From Halococcus sediminicola (GTDB taxonomy: Archaea; Halobacteriota; Halobacteria; Halobacteriales; Halococcaceae), in the NCBI RefSeq assembly GCF_000755245.1, contig NZ_BBMP01000007.1:248001-312000 (forward strand): DNA of 64,000 nt, in the 5' to 3' direction. This document shows, in pieces, positions 17,765 through 24,238 of the stretch. The notes below the pieces were generated by a model. That model saw only the letters and a list, made by a program, of their open reading frames with translations, made no database searches and was not told the DNA's origin. Each line of letters opens with the position of its first letter. Position 1 is the first letter of the stretch. Made by a program: the position numbers and the translations under genes.

Positions 17765-20146
17765 ATGGATGCAGCCGATTCCGACTCGCCGGCCGACGGA
17801 ACCGATACCCCGCCGGACGAGCACGCCGACCGCGAAACCGAGATTGGAGACGAACCGTCGAATTCGGCTTCGACGGACGAGGGAACCGTCGTCCAGCTCT
17901 CGGTTCCCGACATGGACTGCCCCTCCTGTGCGGGGAAAGTCGAGCGCAGCGTTCGGAAACTCGACGGGATCGAGGGTGTCGATCCACAGGCGACGACCGG
18001 CACGCTCACCGTCGCCTTCGACGACGATCGCACGACGCGGGAGGGAATCGCCGAGCGAGTCGAGAAGGCCGGGTACGACGTCACCGACGCTGCGAGTCAG
18101 AGATCGAACGACGAGAGCGATGCGAACGAGAGCATCTGGACGAGTCGGCGCGCGATCAAGACGTGGATCAGTGGCGGGTTCCTCGGGCTGGGTCTCCTCT
18201 TCGAATTCCTCCTGACCACGCAGAACGCCGCCGTCGGAACGGTTCTCGGCAGTGAACTCCACGTCGCGGACGTCCTCTTCTTGATCGGCGTTGCGGTCGG
18301 CGGCCAGGAGATCCTCCGGAACGGCTACTACTCCGCGCGAAATCTCAATCTCGACATCGATTTCCTGATGTCGGTCGCCATCCTCGGCGCGCTGGTCGCG
18401 AGCCTCGCGTTCGGCGAGGCGCTCTACTTCGAGGCCGCCACACTTGCATTCCTGTTCAGCGTGGCCGAACTGCTCGAACGCTCCTCGATGGATCAGGCCC
18501 GCAACTCGCTGCAGGAACTGATGGATCTCTCGCCGGACGAGGCGACCGTCAAGCGCGACAACGGTGAGGAGACGGTGCCGGTCGACGAGGTGTCGGTCGG
18601 CGCGGTCGTGGTGGTGCGTCCGGGCGAGAAGATCCCGATGGACGGCGACGTCGTCGACGGCGAGAGCGCGGTCAACCAGGCCCCCATCACCGGCGAGAGC
18701 GTTCCGGTCGATAAGACCACCGGCGACGAGGTGTACGCGGGGACGATCAACGAGGAGGGCTACCTCGAAGTGCAGGTCACCTCCGGGGCCGCGGACAACA
18801 CCCTCTCGCGCATCGTGGAAATGGTCGAGGACGCCCAGTCTAACAAGACCGAGCGCGAGCAGTTCGTCGAGCGCTTTTCGGCGTGGTACACGCCCGTCGT
18901 GGTCGCGTTTGCGGTCCTGGTGACGCTCGTCAGCCCGTTCGTCCTCGGGACCACGTGGTCGACGGCCGTCGTCCACGGTCTCACCCTACTGGTGCTCGCG
19001 TGCCCGTGCGCGTTCGTCATCTCGACGCCCGTCTCGGTGGTGTCGGGTATCACGAGCGCCGCGGACAACGGCGTGCTCATCAAGGGCGGTAACCACCTCG
19101 AAGCGATGGGCGCGGTCGACGTGGTGGCCTTCGACAAGACCGGCACGCTCACGAAGGGCGAACTCACCGTGACGGACGTCGTTTCGCTCAACGGCAACAC
19201 CGAGGAGGACGTCCTCCGGTGTGCGCGCGGGCTCGAAAAGCGCAGCGAACACCCGATCGGCGAGGCCATCGTCGCCGAGGCCGGCAGCGCGGGCGTCGCC
19301 GAACGGGAGATCGACGACTTCGAGAGTATTACCGGGAAGGGCGTACAGGCGGAGCTCGACGGCACGCCACACTTCGCCGGCAAGCCAGGACTGTTCGACG
19401 ACCTCGGGTTCGACCTCTCACACGTCCATGCGACGACCGACGGAGGCGTCGTCACGGAGACGACCCGCCAGCTCTGCGAGCGCAACGATTGCTTGGACTT
19501 GCTGGAGGAGACGGTACCCGACCTCCAGTCTGAAGGAAAGACCGTCGTACTGGTGGGGACCGAAGACGAGATCGAGGGCATCGTCGCGGTCGCCGACGAA
19601 GTGCGCGCCGAAGCAGAGCGGACGGTTGCCCGGCTTCGGGAACTCGGTGTCGAACGCACGGTGATGCTCACGGGCGACAACGACCGCACCGCGCGCGCGA
19701 TCGCCGAGGGGGTCGGCGTCGACGAGCATCGTGCGGAGCTGCTCCCGGACGAGAAGGTCGAGGCCGTCGAGGAACTAGTCGACGAATACGATGGCGTGGC
19801 GATGGTCGGCGACGGGATCAACGACGCGCCGGCGCTCGCGACCGCGACGGTCGGGGTTGCGATGGGCGCGGCCGGCACGGACACGGCGCTCGAAACCGCC
19901 GACATCGCGCTGATGGGCGACGACCTATCGAAACTCCCGTATCTCTACGAACTCGCGGGCGACGCTAACGGCGTCATCCGCCAGAACATCGTCGGCAGCC
20001 TCCTCTTCAAGGCCGGACTGGCGGTCGCAGTTCCGTTCGGCTACGTCCCGATCTGGCTGGCAGTGCTCGCGGGCGACGCCGGTATGACCGTCGCCGTGAC
20101 CGCCAATGCGATGCGACTCTCGCGCGTTCGAGCGAGCGACGAATGA
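17765..20146 (+). CDS. heavy-metal P1B-type ATPase (Zn/Cd/Pb-like)
   Basis: This 793-residue pump uses ATP to expel soft metal cations. The N-terminus has an acidic spacer and one HMA domain with the metal-binding MDCPSCAGKVERSV (about residues 47-60). The actuator motif is TGESVPVDKT. The membrane CPC motif is at residues 413-415 (ACPCAFVIS), the phosphorylated Asp is D457 in DKTGTLTKG, the SE-HP locus is KRSEHPIGEAI, and the hinge is GDGINDAPAL. The MDCPSC type HMA and overall form resemble ZntA/CadA more than CopA, but Cu cannot be excluded. It shares a strand and region with the ArsP_2 exporter. Confidence 0.95.
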   Translation: MDAADSDSPADGTDTPPDEHADRETEIGDEPSNSASTDEGTVVQLSVPDMDCPSCAGKVERSVRKLDGIEGVDPQATTGTLTVAFDDDRTTREGIAERVEKAGYDVTDAASQRSNDESDANESIWTSRRAIKTWISGGFLGLGLLFEFLLTTQNAAVGTVLGSELHVADVLFLIGVAVGGQEILRNGYYSARNLNLDIDFLMSVAILGALVASLAFGEALYFEAATLAFLFSVAELLERSSMDQARNSLQELMDLSPDEATVKRDNGEETVPVDEVSVGAVVVVRPGEKIPMDGDVVDGESAVNQAPITGESVPVDKTTGDEVYAGTINEEGYLEVQVTSGAADNTLSRIVEMVEDAQSNKTEREQFVERFSAWYTPVVVAFAVLVTLVSPFVLGTTWSTAVVHGLTLLVLACPCAFVISTPVSVVSGITSAADNGVLIKGGNHLEAMGAVDVVAFDKTGTLTKGELTVTDVVSLNGNTEEDVLRCARGLEKRSEHPIGEAIVAEAGSAGVAEREIDDFESITGKGVQAELDGTPHFAGKPGLFDDLGFDLSHVHATTDGGVVTETTRQLCERNDCLDLLEETVPDLQSEGKTVVLVGTEDEIEGIVAVADEVRAEAERTVARLRELGVERTVMLTGDNDRTARAIAEGVGVDEHRAELLPDEKVEAVEELVDEYDGVAMVGDGINDAPALATATVGVAMGAAGTDTALETADIALMGDDLSKLPYLYELAGDANGVIRQNIVGSLLFKAGLAVAVPFGYVPIWLAVLAGDAGMTVAVTANAMRLSRVRASDE

Positions 20147-20257: not shown

Positions 20258-21277
20258 CTACGCGGGCAGACTGCTGTTCGACTGCTCGCGTTCGAGCGCG
20301 TGTCGGGTCGAGGTGTCGAGTTCGACGAGATGACAGAGCGGGTTGCCCGGATATACCAACGGATTTTCGAGCACACCCACCAGCAGGCCCGTAAAGGGTG
20401 CGGTCACGGTCTCGCTGTCGGTCTTGAACGGGTCGGTGATGGTACAGACCGCTTCGCCCTCCTCGACGAGGTCGCCGCCGTCGTAGTGCATATCTACCAA
20501 TCCACCCACGTCCGCCCGGAGCCACGTCTTCTCGGCGTCGCCGTCGATGACGGTGCGCCAACCCGGCCACCGAACCGCGCTCACGCGCTGCATCCCGAAC
20601 TCCGCGAGCACGCTCTCGACGCCGGCGAGCGCGCGATCGATGAGTCCGCGCTGGAAGCGATGGGCCTCGCCCATCTCGATGGTGATCATCGGCACCTCAC
20701 GAACGGTCGCCTCGTGGCGCAGGGTCCCCTCCGGGCCCACGCCGTCGATGACGACGTTCGAGGCGAACGATTTGGCGACGCGCTCGACGCCCTCCTCGGC
20801 GGTGTTCGCGCGGACGTGGAGCATGTTGGTGCGCCCGCGCGTCGAGGTGTGGAAATCCAGCCCGAAATCACAGGGAGCGACGAAGTTTTCGAAGATGTGA
20901 TTGGCCATCCGGCGCGCGCTCGTGCCCGTCTCACTGCCCGGAAACGACCGATTCAGGTCGCGGTCGTAGATGGGTAGATAGCGCTGCTGGGCGAGGAATC
21001 CCGGGACGTTCAATACTGGGAGACAGACCAGCGTCCCGCGGAGGTCGTCGTGGTTCCAGTCGTGGGCGACAGTTCTGACGACCTCGATGCCGTTGAGTTC
21101 GTCGCCGTGGGCCGCCGCGCTGAGGACCCCCGTCGGTCCCGGCTCGGAGCCGTTGACGATGGTTACCGGGATGCGAACCGGATCGCCCATGTACGTCTCA
21201 CTGATAGCGTAGCGGATGTCCCGCGTCTCGCCCGGTTCGACCCGGCCCCCGTCGTAGCTGAACGCACCGTCGGCCAT
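20258..21277 (-). CDS. succinylglutamate desuccinylase/aspartoacylase-family protein
   Basis: The 339-residue zinc hydrolase of the M14-like AstE/AspA family starts at ATG 21277 (MADGAFSYDGGRVEPGE). The zinc motif is AAHGDELNGIEVV (His and Glu), with a later His in FGLDFHTSTRGRTN. A catalytic Glu region is PMITIEMGEAHRF. A C-terminal barrel-like domain (GGLVDMHYDGGDLVEEGEAV) resembles a swivelling lipoyl-like fold. It is divergent from the RimK-protease fusion. This pairing suggests a joint amino-acid tagging/untagging role, inferred only. Confidence 0.88.
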   Translation of the reverse strand: MADGAFSYDGGRVEPGETRDIRYAISETYMGDPVRIPVTIVNGSEPGPTGVLSAAAHGDELNGIEVVRTVAHDWNHDDLRGTLVCLPVLNVPGFLAQQRYLPIYDRDLNRSFPGSETGTSARRMANHIFENFVAPCDFGLDFHTSTRGRTNMLHVRANTAEEGVERVAKSFASNVVIDGVGPEGTLRHEATVREVPMITIEMGEAHRFQRGLIDRALAGVESVLAEFGMQRVSAVRWPGWRTVIDGDAEKTWLRADVGGLVDMHYDGGDLVEEGEAVCTITDPFKTDSETVTAPFTGLLVGVLENPLVYPGNPLCHLVELDTSTRHALEREQSNSSLPA

Positions 21278-21368
21278 TGCTCGCGCCTCGGCAGCCACAC
21301 GTAAAGCCCTCGCGTCTGCCGGCCGCACGGCTGCCGGCCATCGCCATAGCTTTGCCGAACGCGCAGCG

Positions 21369-22727
21369 ATGAAGGATATGGACGAGACAGCAGCGGTTCG
21401 CGTGGGCGTGTTGAGCCTCCACACCAGCAAGGAGACCAAAGCGATCTTGAACGCCGTCGAGGACCTCAGCCACGAACCCGTCTGGTTGCGCCGGGAGAAC
21501 ACGGCGATCTCCATCCGCGACAGCGAGGTGAGTCTCGAACCCGAAGTCGACGTCGTCGCCAACCGATTACTCCTGTCGAACACCGAAGAACCGGCCGAGG
21601 GACTCGGCCTCGCGGCGACCTTCGAGCGCGTCCGCCCGATGCTCAATCGTCCGGGACCCACCTTGACGGCGATCCACAAGTTCGCCACCGCCGCCCGACT
21701 GGCCGACTGGAACGTCCGCGTGCCGGATGCGCTGCTCGCGCTCTCGAACGACCGGCTGAATCGTGGCCGCGAGCGCTTCGGCGATGTCGGCGTCTACAAG
21801 ACTGCCATCGGCACTCACGGTGGTGGGACGTGGAAGGTGGACCTCGACGAACCTGTGAACCCGAAAGTCGGCAAGCGACAGGCCTTCTTGCAGGAACTCA
21901 TCGAGCGCGACGCGAGCGAACACCGCGACCTCCGAGTGTACGTCGTCGGCGACCGCATCATCGGCGCGATGCACCGCTACGCGCCGGAAGGCGACTGGCG
22001 GACGAACGTCGCCCTCGGCGGCGCGGTCGAGAACGTCACCGACGAGATCCCCGACGAGGCCCGCGAGACCGCCCTCTACGCCGCCGACGTGATGAACCTC
22101 GACTACGTTGGAGTCGACCTCATCGAAGGAGAGAAAGGCTGGTACGTCCTCGAGATGAATCCAACAGCCGGCTTCAAAGGTCTCTACGAGGCCACCGGCA
22201 CGAGTCCCGCCCCCTACATCGCCAAGCACGCCATCGAGAAGGTCGGGGGGGAAGTCGACGACGAGCGCGTGCGTGACCTCGCGGCGACGCTCGACGACTC
22301 CCGTCCCACGAGTATGCCCCGCACCGAACGGCCCGCACCCGGCCAGACGCCGACGGTCGGCTACATCGAGGACGTGGTGGTCAGCGGCACCAGCGGCTCC
22401 CAGTCGACGCTCGCGAAATCCGACACGGGCGCGACACGAACCAGCATCGACACCTCGCTGGCGGCCGCCATCGGTGCCGGACCGATAAAGAGCATGACGC
22501 GCGTGCGCTCGGGCAGTTCGAAATCCGGCACGGCCCGCCCGGTGGTCGATCTCGTGGTGGGCGTCGGCGGCACCCAACACACCGTCACTGCGAGCGTCGA
22601 GGACCGCAGCCACATGAGCTATCCACTCCTGCTGGGCCGAGACATCCTCAAGCACTATCAGGTTGACGTCCGCCGGCGTGCCGACAGCGACGAGCCACGG
22701 CCCGAGGAGGAAGCACTCGAAGAATAG
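21369..22727 (+). CDS. RimK-type ATP-grasp ligase fused to an Asp-protease-like domain
   Basis: Residues about 10-300 form an ATP-grasp ligase: KFATAARLADWNVRVPDALL, the Gly-rich lid TAIGTHGGGTWKV, and VLEMNPTAGFKGLYEATG near the active site. After a Pro-rich linker (RPAPGQTPTV), residues about 330-440 match the RimK-associated RimB/retropepsin-like domain with SDTGATRTSID (Asp 352) and HMSYPLLLGRDILKHYQVDV. In bacteria these are often separate proteins. RimK-type enzymes add amino acids, often glutamate, to a C-terminus or small molecule; the target here is unknown. Divergent from the aspartoacylase-like gene by about 90 bases. Confidence 0.9.
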   Translation: MKDMDETAAVRVGVLSLHTSKETKAILNAVEDLSHEPVWLRRENTAISIRDSEVSLEPEVDVVANRLLLSNTEEPAEGLGLAATFERVRPMLNRPGPTLTAIHKFATAARLADWNVRVPDALLALSNDRLNRGRERFGDVGVYKTAIGTHGGGTWKVDLDEPVNPKVGKRQAFLQELIERDASEHRDLRVYVVGDRIIGAMHRYAPEGDWRTNVALGGAVENVTDEIPDEARETALYAADVMNLDYVGVDLIEGEKGWYVLEMNPTAGFKGLYEATGTSPAPYIAKHAIEKVGGEVDDERVRDLAATLDDSRPTSMPRTERPAPGQTPTVGYIEDVVVSGTSGSQSTLAKSDTGATRTSIDTSLAAAIGAGPIKSMTRVRSGSSKSGTARPVVDLVVGVGGTQHTVTASVEDRSHMSYPLLLGRDILKHYQVDVRRRADSDEPRPEEEALEE

Positions 22728-22736
22728 GGATACCGG

Positions 22737-23318
22737 TCAGGACTCGTAGTGTCGCCAGATGTAGAGCGTGGCGAGGCTTCGGTACGGTCGCCAGCGCTCG
22801 GCGACCGCGCGCATCTCCTCGCGCGTCATCTCGCCGTCGCCGTACAGCGACTCGATGCCCCGGCGCACCGCGAGGTCGCCGAGCGGGAGGACGTCCTCGC
22901 GACCGAGCGCGAAGATGAGATACATCCGCCCGGTCCACTCGCCGACGCCACGAATCTCGGCGAGTTCGTCGATGACTTCCTCGTCGTTCGCATCCGCGAA
23001 CCCCTCGCGAGTCAGGTCGCGCTCGCGGAAGGCTCTGGCGGTGTTTCTGACGTACTCGGTCTTCGTCTCGCCGAGGCCCGCATCGCGGAGTTCGTCGGCG
23101 TCGGCGGCGAGCACCGCTTCGGGTGTGAGGTCGTCGAACAGTGCGAACACGCGTTCGCGGACGGCGTTGGCCGAGGCCGTCGAGATGGACTGATTGATGA
23201 TGGAGATCACGAGGCGCTCGAAGGGGTCGTCCGCGACGTCGAGTTCGAGTTCGCCGAACTCCTCGATCAGTGCGCGCAGTACGGGGTCCTCGCGCAGCGT
23301 ATCGTGGGCATCGGACAC
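22737..23318 (-). CDS. HhH-GPD base-excision DNA glycosylase (AlkA-like)
   Basis: The 193-residue protein has ISIINQSISTASANAVRERVF (helical start of the fold), the helix-hairpin-helix IRGVGEWTGRMYLIF and the catalytic Asp in VLPLGDLAVRRGI. This fits 3-methyladenine glycosylases that remove alkylated purines. The start is GTG 23318 (VSDAHDTLREDPVLR). It runs in the minus direction and converges with the RimK-fusion gene, with 9 bases between the stops. Confidence 0.9.
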   Translation of the reverse strand: MSDAHDTLREDPVLRALIEEFGELELDVADDPFERLVISIINQSISTASANAVRERVFALFDDLTPEAVLAADADELRDAGLGETKTEYVRNTARAFRERDLTREGFADANDEEVIDELAEIRGVGEWTGRMYLIFALGREDVLPLGDLAVRRGIESLYGDGEMTREEMRAVAERWRPYRSLATLYIWRHYES

Positions 23319-23395
23319 GGAGCAGGTGCGAGCGCGACGGCGATAGCGGTTGTGGTCGCGGCCGTCGGGGGTTGCTTGTCGACTACAAACAGTCT

Positions 23396-24238
23396 TCAGC
23401 CGAGCGCAACGTCGAGCGAGAGCATCACGACGAGTCCGACGATGGTGCCGAGCGTCGCCATCCGTTCGTGACCGTTGGCGTGGGTCTGCGGGACGATTTC
23501 GTCGATGATGACGTAGAGCATTCCGCCGGCGGCGAAGCCCATCGCGTACGGGAGGATCGGGGCGGCGAACGAAACCGCGACCGCGCCGAACACCGCGATG
23601 GGGAGTTCGACCAGCCCCGAGCGAACCCCCGTGATGCCGGCGTAGAACAGCGAGCCGAGCCCGGCGTTGCGGGCGGCGACCGCGACCGCGAGTCCTTCGG
23701 GAATGTTCTGGATGCCGATGGCGAGCATCAGCGCGATGGCGTTGCTCAGGTTGCCCGAGCCGAAGCCGACGCCGACCGCGAGCGCCTCGGGCATGTTGTG
23801 CAGCGTGATGGCGACGATGAAGATTATCAGGGGTGTGATCCGGCGCTCGTTGGCCGCTCGCTGGGCCGCGACCGCCTCGCCCCCGTCGGTCGAGAACTCT
23901 TCGCTGCTGCGACCGGTGACGAGGCGCTGGACGTAGGGAACCCACTTCTCGCCGCGGTCGAGCACGACCGCTCCTAATAGGATCCCGACGACGACCGGAA
24001 AGAGGCTTCCACCGGCGTAGTCCTCGATGCCCGGGATGATGAGGCTCGTGAAACTCGCCGCGAGCATGACGCCGCCCGCGAAGCCGAGCGCCCCGTCGAG
24101 CGCGCGCTCGCTGGGATTGCGCCAGACGACCACCGACAGCGCGCCGACGGCGTTGAGACCGGCGATGACCAACCCGCCGACGAGTGCCTGCCAGATCGGA
24201 TCCGTGCCGGCAAACCGGACGAAGAGGTCCTCTAACAT
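23396..24238 (-). CDS. ZIP-family divalent metal transporter
   Basis: The 280-residue protein has eight predicted TM helices with the ZIP motifs TLHNMPEALAVGVGFG (helix 4) and QNIPEGLAVAVA (helix 5), the GufA/ZupT-like form. It likely takes in zinc, manganese or iron. A small His/Glu-rich loop stands after helix 3. A possible DtxR/SirR-like inverted repeat lies 87 bases upstream. It shares a region with the P-type ATPase, exporter and the DNA glycosylase but not their operon. Confidence 0.92.
   Translation of the reverse strand: MLEDLFVRFAGTDPIWQALVGGLVIAGLNAVGALSVVVWRNPSERALDGALGFAGGVMLAASFTSLIIPGIEDYAGGSLFPVVVGILLGAVVLDRGEKWVPYVQRLVTGRSSEEFSTDGGEAVAAQRAANERRITPLIIFIVAITLHNMPEALAVGVGFGSGNLSNAIALMLAIGIQNIPEGLAVAVAARNAGLGSLFYAGITGVRSGLVELPIAVFGAVAVSFAAPILPYAMGFAAGGMLYVIIDEIVPQTHANGHERMATLGTIVGLVVMLSLDVALG

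Follow-up and report, generated by a model that had tools for sequence, protein, structure and literature searches.

What might a RimK-like ligase do that carries an aspartic-protease-like domain on its own chain and is transcribed divergently from an aspartoacylase-like hydrolase, and do the two genes belong together at all? The question is raised by a locus of Halococcus sediminicola (genome 3.76 Mb), which we studied within a window of 64,000 nucleotides (contig NZ_BBMP01000007.1, positions 248,001 to 312,000); positions below count from the first letter of the window. A preliminary description had pointed out the divergent pair, and both genes were found where it placed them, with Pfam matches (Table 1). 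To our knowledge, the targets of RimK ligases beyond ribosomal protein S6 and coenzyme pathways are largely unknown, and we know of no bacterial-type S6 in archaea.

Gene calls and domain assignments

The hydrolase gene (AST) most likely starts with the ATG at 21277; a longer mechanical ORF start at 21688 is disfavoured because the homologues begin at the position of 21277. A chance pair of ORFs was ruled out, since both the sequence and the adjacency are kept across genera.

Table 1. Features of the AST/fusion locus, in window coordinates
Feature	Position	Strand	Details	Basis or remark
HMA-type P-type ATPase gene	17765..20146	+	on the far side of AST	
AST, AstE/aspartoacylase-family zinc hydrolase	20258..21277	-	339 aa	PF24827 match
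AST motif residues	within 20258..21277	-	HGDE, residues 57-60, at 21098-21109; DFH, residues 141-143; E201	
Divergent intergenic region shared by AST and fusion	21278..21368	.	91 bp	AST/fusion gap 84-231 bp at most loci with both genes whole
RimK-RimB fusion protein	21369..22727	+	452 aa	PF08443 and PF05618 on a single chain
RimK-like ATP-grasp ligase domain	21399..22283	+	residues ~11-305	AlphaFold model, folds, LysX alignment
RimB-like retropepsin domain	22356..22679	+	residues ~330-437; DTG, residues 352-354, at 22422-22430	PF05618, profile matches
Glu-rich C-terminal tail	22680..22724	+	residues 438-452, ADSDEPRPEEEALEE; final Glu-Glu at 22719-22724	
HhH-GPD DNA glycosylase gene	22737..23945	-	downstream of the fusion	

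The fusion protein is a member of the RimK family PF08443 (87.1 bits, Pfam cut-off 21), and residues K144, R189, N213, D250, E262 and N264 of its ligase domain are invariant among the aligned haloarchaeal homologues. AlphaFold modelled the ligase part mostly at high pLDDT, and the top Foldseek folds for this domain were RimK-RpsF (5ZK6), RimK (4IWX) and LysX/ArgX (5K2M and 3VPB), with E-values of ~1e-18. The domain belongs to no named equivalog, as it stays below the cut-off of every NCBIfam model: 64.4 bits against 331 for the RimK equivalog PRK10446.1 (ribosomal protein S6--L-glutamate ligase), 99.3 against 275.6 for LysX, 110.3 against 350 for MptN, 54.1 against 300 for CofF and, narrowly, 139.2 against 143.4 for the general RimK-family model TIGR00768. 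Sequence alignment places it closest to LysX; because of this best alignment and the lack of any NCBIfam assignment, glutamate as the added amino acid is uncertain. LysX/ArgX ligases are likewise of the RimK family and modify a protein, LysW, at its C-terminal Glu; that system has a separate carrier protein, a gamma linkage and a biosynthetic role, and the fusion falls under the LysX model cut-off.

The C-terminal domain is assigned by sequence to the RimB-like retropepsins. The fusion is a member of PF05618 Zn_protease, the RimB/RloA retropepsin family (36.1 bits, cut-off 27), and a profile of the domain matched the solved bacterial retropepsins 9G59 (E 2.5e-9), 9G58 (1.8e-6) and 2PMA (5.5e-6); profile-profile comparison with stand-alone RimB gave a probability of 86%. 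Although the Pfam name still refers to an ATP-dependent zinc protease, RimB and RloA, the members that have been characterised, belong to the retropepsin-like aspartic peptidases (PMC11957791, PMC12239564). As first noted, the protein contains the motif KSDTGATRTSID, with D352 correctly numbered (codon 22422-22424), and a ligase and an aspartic-protease-like domain do share one chain, with D352 conserved. The earlier concern that the active site might be unusable did not hold: DTG is intact in 30/30 aligned haloarchaeal homologues, and K350, S351, D352, T353, G354 and A355 are all invariant there. Structure prediction, suggested earlier as a check and run with AlphaFold on single chains, reached a pLDDT of 47 for the protease domain alone and ~30 for it in the full chain, and a Foldseek search with the low-confidence model (pLDDT 47) gave no significant match. 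DTG is replaced (by NPA, DPT or EPV) in the fusion paralogs of loci L208/L224, L209 and L221.

AST is a member of PF24827 AstE_AspA_cat (148.6 bits, cut-off 25) and has the zinc ligands H, E and H and the catalytic E of the AstE/aspartoacylase motif (HGDE, DFH and E201); 19 haloarchaeal homologues all share H57, E60, N109, R110, H143 and E201. The nearest solved relatives of its profile are the N-acetyl-diaminobutyrate deacetylases (DoeB) 3NA6, 6TWL and 6TWM, so AST could be a deacylase. Its scores remained below the NCBIfam cut-offs for DoeB (92 against 402.7), AstE (21.2 against 305.65) and aspartoacylase (29 against 180). The locus had been read as a complete write-and-erase set. The adjacency and conservation of the three families agree with this in part; AST as the eraser of a glutamate tag is a tentative element of it, its nearest solved relatives being DoeB deacetylases. 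Eukaryotic TTLL glutamylases are ATP-grasp writers and the CCP deglutamylases are M14-type zinc erasers; they target tubulin side chains and use no retropepsin. The pairing of an ATP-grasp writer with a zinc eraser resembles that of the fusion with AST as an analogy only.

Retention of the gene pair and related units elsewhere

A fusion ortholog was found in 348 of 391 Halobacteria genomes. Co-occurrence of the two genes, suggested earlier as a check, is strong (both in 347 genomes, neither in 37, AST only in 6, fusion only in 1; phi ~0.9), the counts being confounded in part by common descent and by the adjacency of the genes. A clear gap in E-values told AST orthologs from paralogs. In the single fusion-only genome the fusion lies at a contig end. 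The 37 genomes with neither gene are scattered over ~18 genera, several of which have members with both, and this indicates repeated joint loss. Co-occurrence alone does not establish a joint function, because one deletion can remove adjacent genes.

Sequence searches gave 32 loci, of which 31 have AST, and the two genes are divergent and 84-231 bp apart at nearly all loci where both are whole, one gap being 1,250 bp. The neighbourhood is therefore conserved throughout haloarchaea, contrary to what was first named as a possible refutation. In family f4 (L132-L146) the genes are still divergent though 1-4.5 kb apart; the f4 loci that were read have a GNAT acetyltransferase gene, often together with a polysaccharide-flippase-like gene, in between. 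Five of the AST-only genomes were read: four have fusion fragments beside AST, and the fifth has an incomplete AST gene. Whole AST genes next to fragmentary fusions were seen at L139 (G110), L140 (G168), L141 (G388) and L142 (G184); since AST persists there, it is useful, or lingers, without the fusion. We concluded that AST and the fusion form a real conserved unit.

Other genes around the pair were also compared. Glycosylase homologues lie near the fusion at many loci, at times on the opposite strand. The HMA P-type ATPase gene was considered as a conserved partner of AST and rejected, as other AST loci lack it. AST paralogs on the haloarchaeal plasmids L187 and L188 adjoin copper-translocating P-type ATPases. 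On a Haladaptatus pallidirubidus plasmid (L207), a fusion paralog shares its neighbourhood with a further member of the AstE family and a gene of the glutamate-cysteine ligase family, which suggests a second small pathway.

In the phylum sample, PF05618 domains beyond Halobacteria stand alone. One methanogen family has rimB, rimK and astE as consecutive genes on the same strand; this order recurs on bacterial plasmids of Salinivibrio and Phaeobacter, and the order rimK-astE-rimB on plasmids of Vibrio nigripulchritudo and V. europaeus. The methanogen and Salinivibrio AstE proteins group next to the AST clade of haloarchaea, at moderate support (87/85). The unit of three activities thus predates the fusion or at any rate occurs more widely; as three separate genes it is also found in methanogens and bacteria, and in this respect the preliminary description was incomplete. 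The bacterial triads L219, L214, L148 and L218 are flanked by MgtE/CorA-family transporters (CorA, ZntB), mechanosensitive channels or universal stress proteins. Taken together, triads and AST paralogs often adjoin magnesium/CorA-type transporters, mechanosensitive channels, copper ATPases, cation antiporters and universal stress proteins. The ATP-grasp amidoligase survey of Iyer et al. from 2009 reportedly may already note RimK-peptidase neighbourhoods, and for this reason the neighbourhood itself is not claimed here as new.

RimK and RimB are often separate in bacteria, as had been stated, but bacterial RimB-RimK hybrids with protease activity have been published (PMC11957791). The RimBK hybrid of Desulfotalea psychrophila likewise combines a RimB-type retropepsin with DTG and a RimK-type ligase on one chain; the purified protein cuts polyglutamylated RpsF and gave no RpsF glutamylation in the published test (PMC11957791). 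RimB is N-terminal in that hybrid and C-terminal in the haloarchaeal fusion, and RimB-first hybrids are also annotated in Thioclava and Aureibacter. By its domain order, the fusion is a reversed, archaeal version of the known hybrid. In Pseudomonas fluorescens, RimA-RimB-RimK likewise brings together a ligase and a polyglutamate protease, and RimB stimulates poly-alpha-glutamate synthesis; the proteins are separate there, the target is RpsF, RimA is a c-di-GMP regulator, and an AstE partner is not described in the literature cited for this system. Little et al. (2025, JBC) deal with bacteria only, and archaea and aspartoacylase are absent from their main text (PMC11957791). The RloA retropepsins of Pseudomonas aeruginosa belong to the same peptidase family as the fusion domain, form solved dimers and cut polyglutamate; unlike the fusion, they are secreted, carry a signal peptide and are not joined to a ligase (PMC12239564).

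The glutamate end of the fusion protein

The terminal residue is Glu in 100/101 complete haloarchaeal fusion proteins, and the lone exception ends EEEEEEEL. Among 87 distinct fusion sequences, 68 end in EE; the frequency of E is 99% at -1, 79% at -2 and 38-56% at -3 to -8, and E is rare by -16. The tail after the last conserved strand is 8 to 24 residues long in the distinct sequences, so that it is variable overall and yet best conserved at its very end, where E peaks. In a background of 305 haloarchaeal proteins, taken with a simple ORF filter and not with a gene caller, 34 (11%) end in E and none has EEE within the last 20 residues. The genomic neighbours are E-ended in 10/88 cases for AST and 8/51 for the glycosylase, and the other two RimK-family proteins of the window's own genome have no EE end.

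The feature extends to further fusion paralogs on plasmids or at second loci, 45-66% identical to the window protein: EE ends 16 of 17 of them (intact plasmid-borne copies 9/9, further copies 7/8), some with few post-domain residues. The sole paralog without EE is that of L221, where DTG is lost too; two other paralogs without DTG retain EE, and the EE end is therefore independent of the protease. No EE end was found in any of the methanogen or bacterial proteins examined, whether stand-alone or hybrid, and the Thioclava and Aureibacter hybrids, unlike the haloarchaeal fusion, have no Glu end. For comparison, the last residues of E. coli RpsF, the acceptor of RimK, are GDSEE and those of Pseudomonas RpsF are DNADE (PMC11957791).

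We looked for other proteins with such ends. No EEEE-ended protein was found in the window's own genome. In 16 other genomes we counted 31 sites where EEEE precedes a stop codon, and the fusion accounts for 16 of these; as these genomes were picked for an EEEE-ended fusion, only the rarity of the other EEEE ends is informative. A membrane-associated haloarchaeal protein with EEEEEWEPIEEFEP has a long C-terminal Glu run in some genomes and not in others (L157, L158, L163 and L184). No support was obtained for another conserved target with an EEEE end, since the recurrent candidate is without the Glu end in L163 and L184. The Glu end of the fusion, which the preliminary description had missed, is a new observation and makes the fusion itself a candidate target.

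A possible polyglutamate cycle and its alternatives

From the genes, domains, motifs and C-terminal Glu observed here, together with the co-retention and the related three-gene units, we infer a possible scheme that covers ligation and its linkage, the acceptor, self-modification, cleavage, the AST substrate and a physiological role. Our preferred reading, held at a little less than even confidence, is that the fusion is a single-chain writer and cutter of polyglutamate with its own Glu(-Glu) end as acceptor, and that AST processes the product. The RimK-type ATP-grasp domain would join L-glutamate onto a C-terminal glutamate, most likely the conserved end of the fusion itself, in cis, or in trans inside an oligomer. 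The poly-alpha-glutamate would lengthen to ~5-6 consecutive Glu, the minimum for RimB-type retropepsins, and the retropepsin domain, as a dimer around D352, would then cleave the tail, resetting it and freeing glutamate oligomers. AST would hydrolyse or deacylate the released product and close the cycle, and the adjustable polyanion would probably serve ionic or osmotic homeostasis. Published RimK appends Glu to a C-terminal Glu and RimB cuts runs of ~5-6 Glu; with Pseudomonas RimK, free poly-alpha-glutamate was detected only when RimB was present (PMC11957791). It is possible, though doubtful, that the fusion is a self-primed poly-alpha-glutamate synthase, with its own Glu-Glu as primer, a retropepsin that would release the polymer and AST to recycle it; haloarchaea would then possess a soluble, tunable polyanion tied to ion or osmotic balance.

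Counting against the preferred reading, most encoded tails are shorter than the published RimB cutting length. The best alignment to LysX and the lack of an NCBIfam assignment, the low-confidence model of the protease domain, the EE kept by two DTG-less paralogs and the persistence of AST beside fusion fragments weigh on the same side. The encoded Glu runs in haloarchaeal tails are mostly 2-5, with runs up to four dominating, and since RimB needs 5-6, many tails would be cuttable only once extended.

The acceptor may instead be another haloarchaeal protein, glutamylated and de-glutamylated in trans by the fusion, whose own Glu end would be a side product or regulator. Pseudomonas RimK and RimB do act on RpsF in this way (PMC11957791), and the membrane protein with its C-terminal Glu run would offer a target in some genomes. 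We regard a trans acceptor as unlikely, because EEEE-ended proteins are rare (0 in this genome and, besides the fusion, ~1 per genome in the 16 others), one recurrent candidate loses its Glu end, and the constancy of the enzyme's own end would be left unexplained.

A small-molecule amide ligase like MptN, CofF or NAAG synthetase, with AST deacylating an N-acyl product and GNAT supplying the acyl group in one family, would suit the deacetylase relatives of AST, the GNAT gene that separates AST from the fusion in those f4 loci that were read, and the plasmid paralog whose neighbours are a further AstE-family gene and a glutamate-cysteine ligase. MptN is also the top-scoring NCBIfam equivalog, yet far under its cut-off. 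Such an enzyme would need neither a polyglutamate-cutting protease domain nor a Glu-Glu protein end, and the GNAT gene was found in one family only, which makes this reading quite improbable.

The same sequence signal as for self-glutamylation would be left by a pseudosubstrate, that is, an unmodified Glu end that occupies the acceptor site of the ligase or the protease cleft and turns the enzyme off. A Glu end would suit an acceptor pocket, and the predominance of encoded runs of four Glu or fewer, against the 5-6 of published RimB, also speaks for it. Autoinhibition of the protease alone is improbable given the EE retained by two DTG-less paralogs, and we give the pseudosubstrate as a whole only a slight chance. 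That AST and the fusion are merely syntenic neighbours with unrelated functions would agree with their removal by single deletions and with the glycosylase gene that is likewise nearby at many loci, but is very improbable, since methanogens and bacteria have related AstE genes in operons with rimK and rimB, and the haloarchaeal pair remains divergent and neighbouring after insertions of 1-4.5 kb.

For the preferred cycle of self-glutamylation and cutting, ion or osmotic balance is our leading guess as the role, based on the ion- and osmosis-related gene neighbours and on the hypo-osmotic sensitivity that follows the loss of all three RloA proteases (PMC12239564). In the conserved Glu terminus of its own chain, the enzyme offers a specific candidate target that can be tested directly. 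Should the proposal hold, archaea would have a self-priming polyglutamate system, which would help to account for the repeated joint occurrence of a ligase, a protease and an AstE hydrolase in archaea adapted to salt and in marine bacteria.
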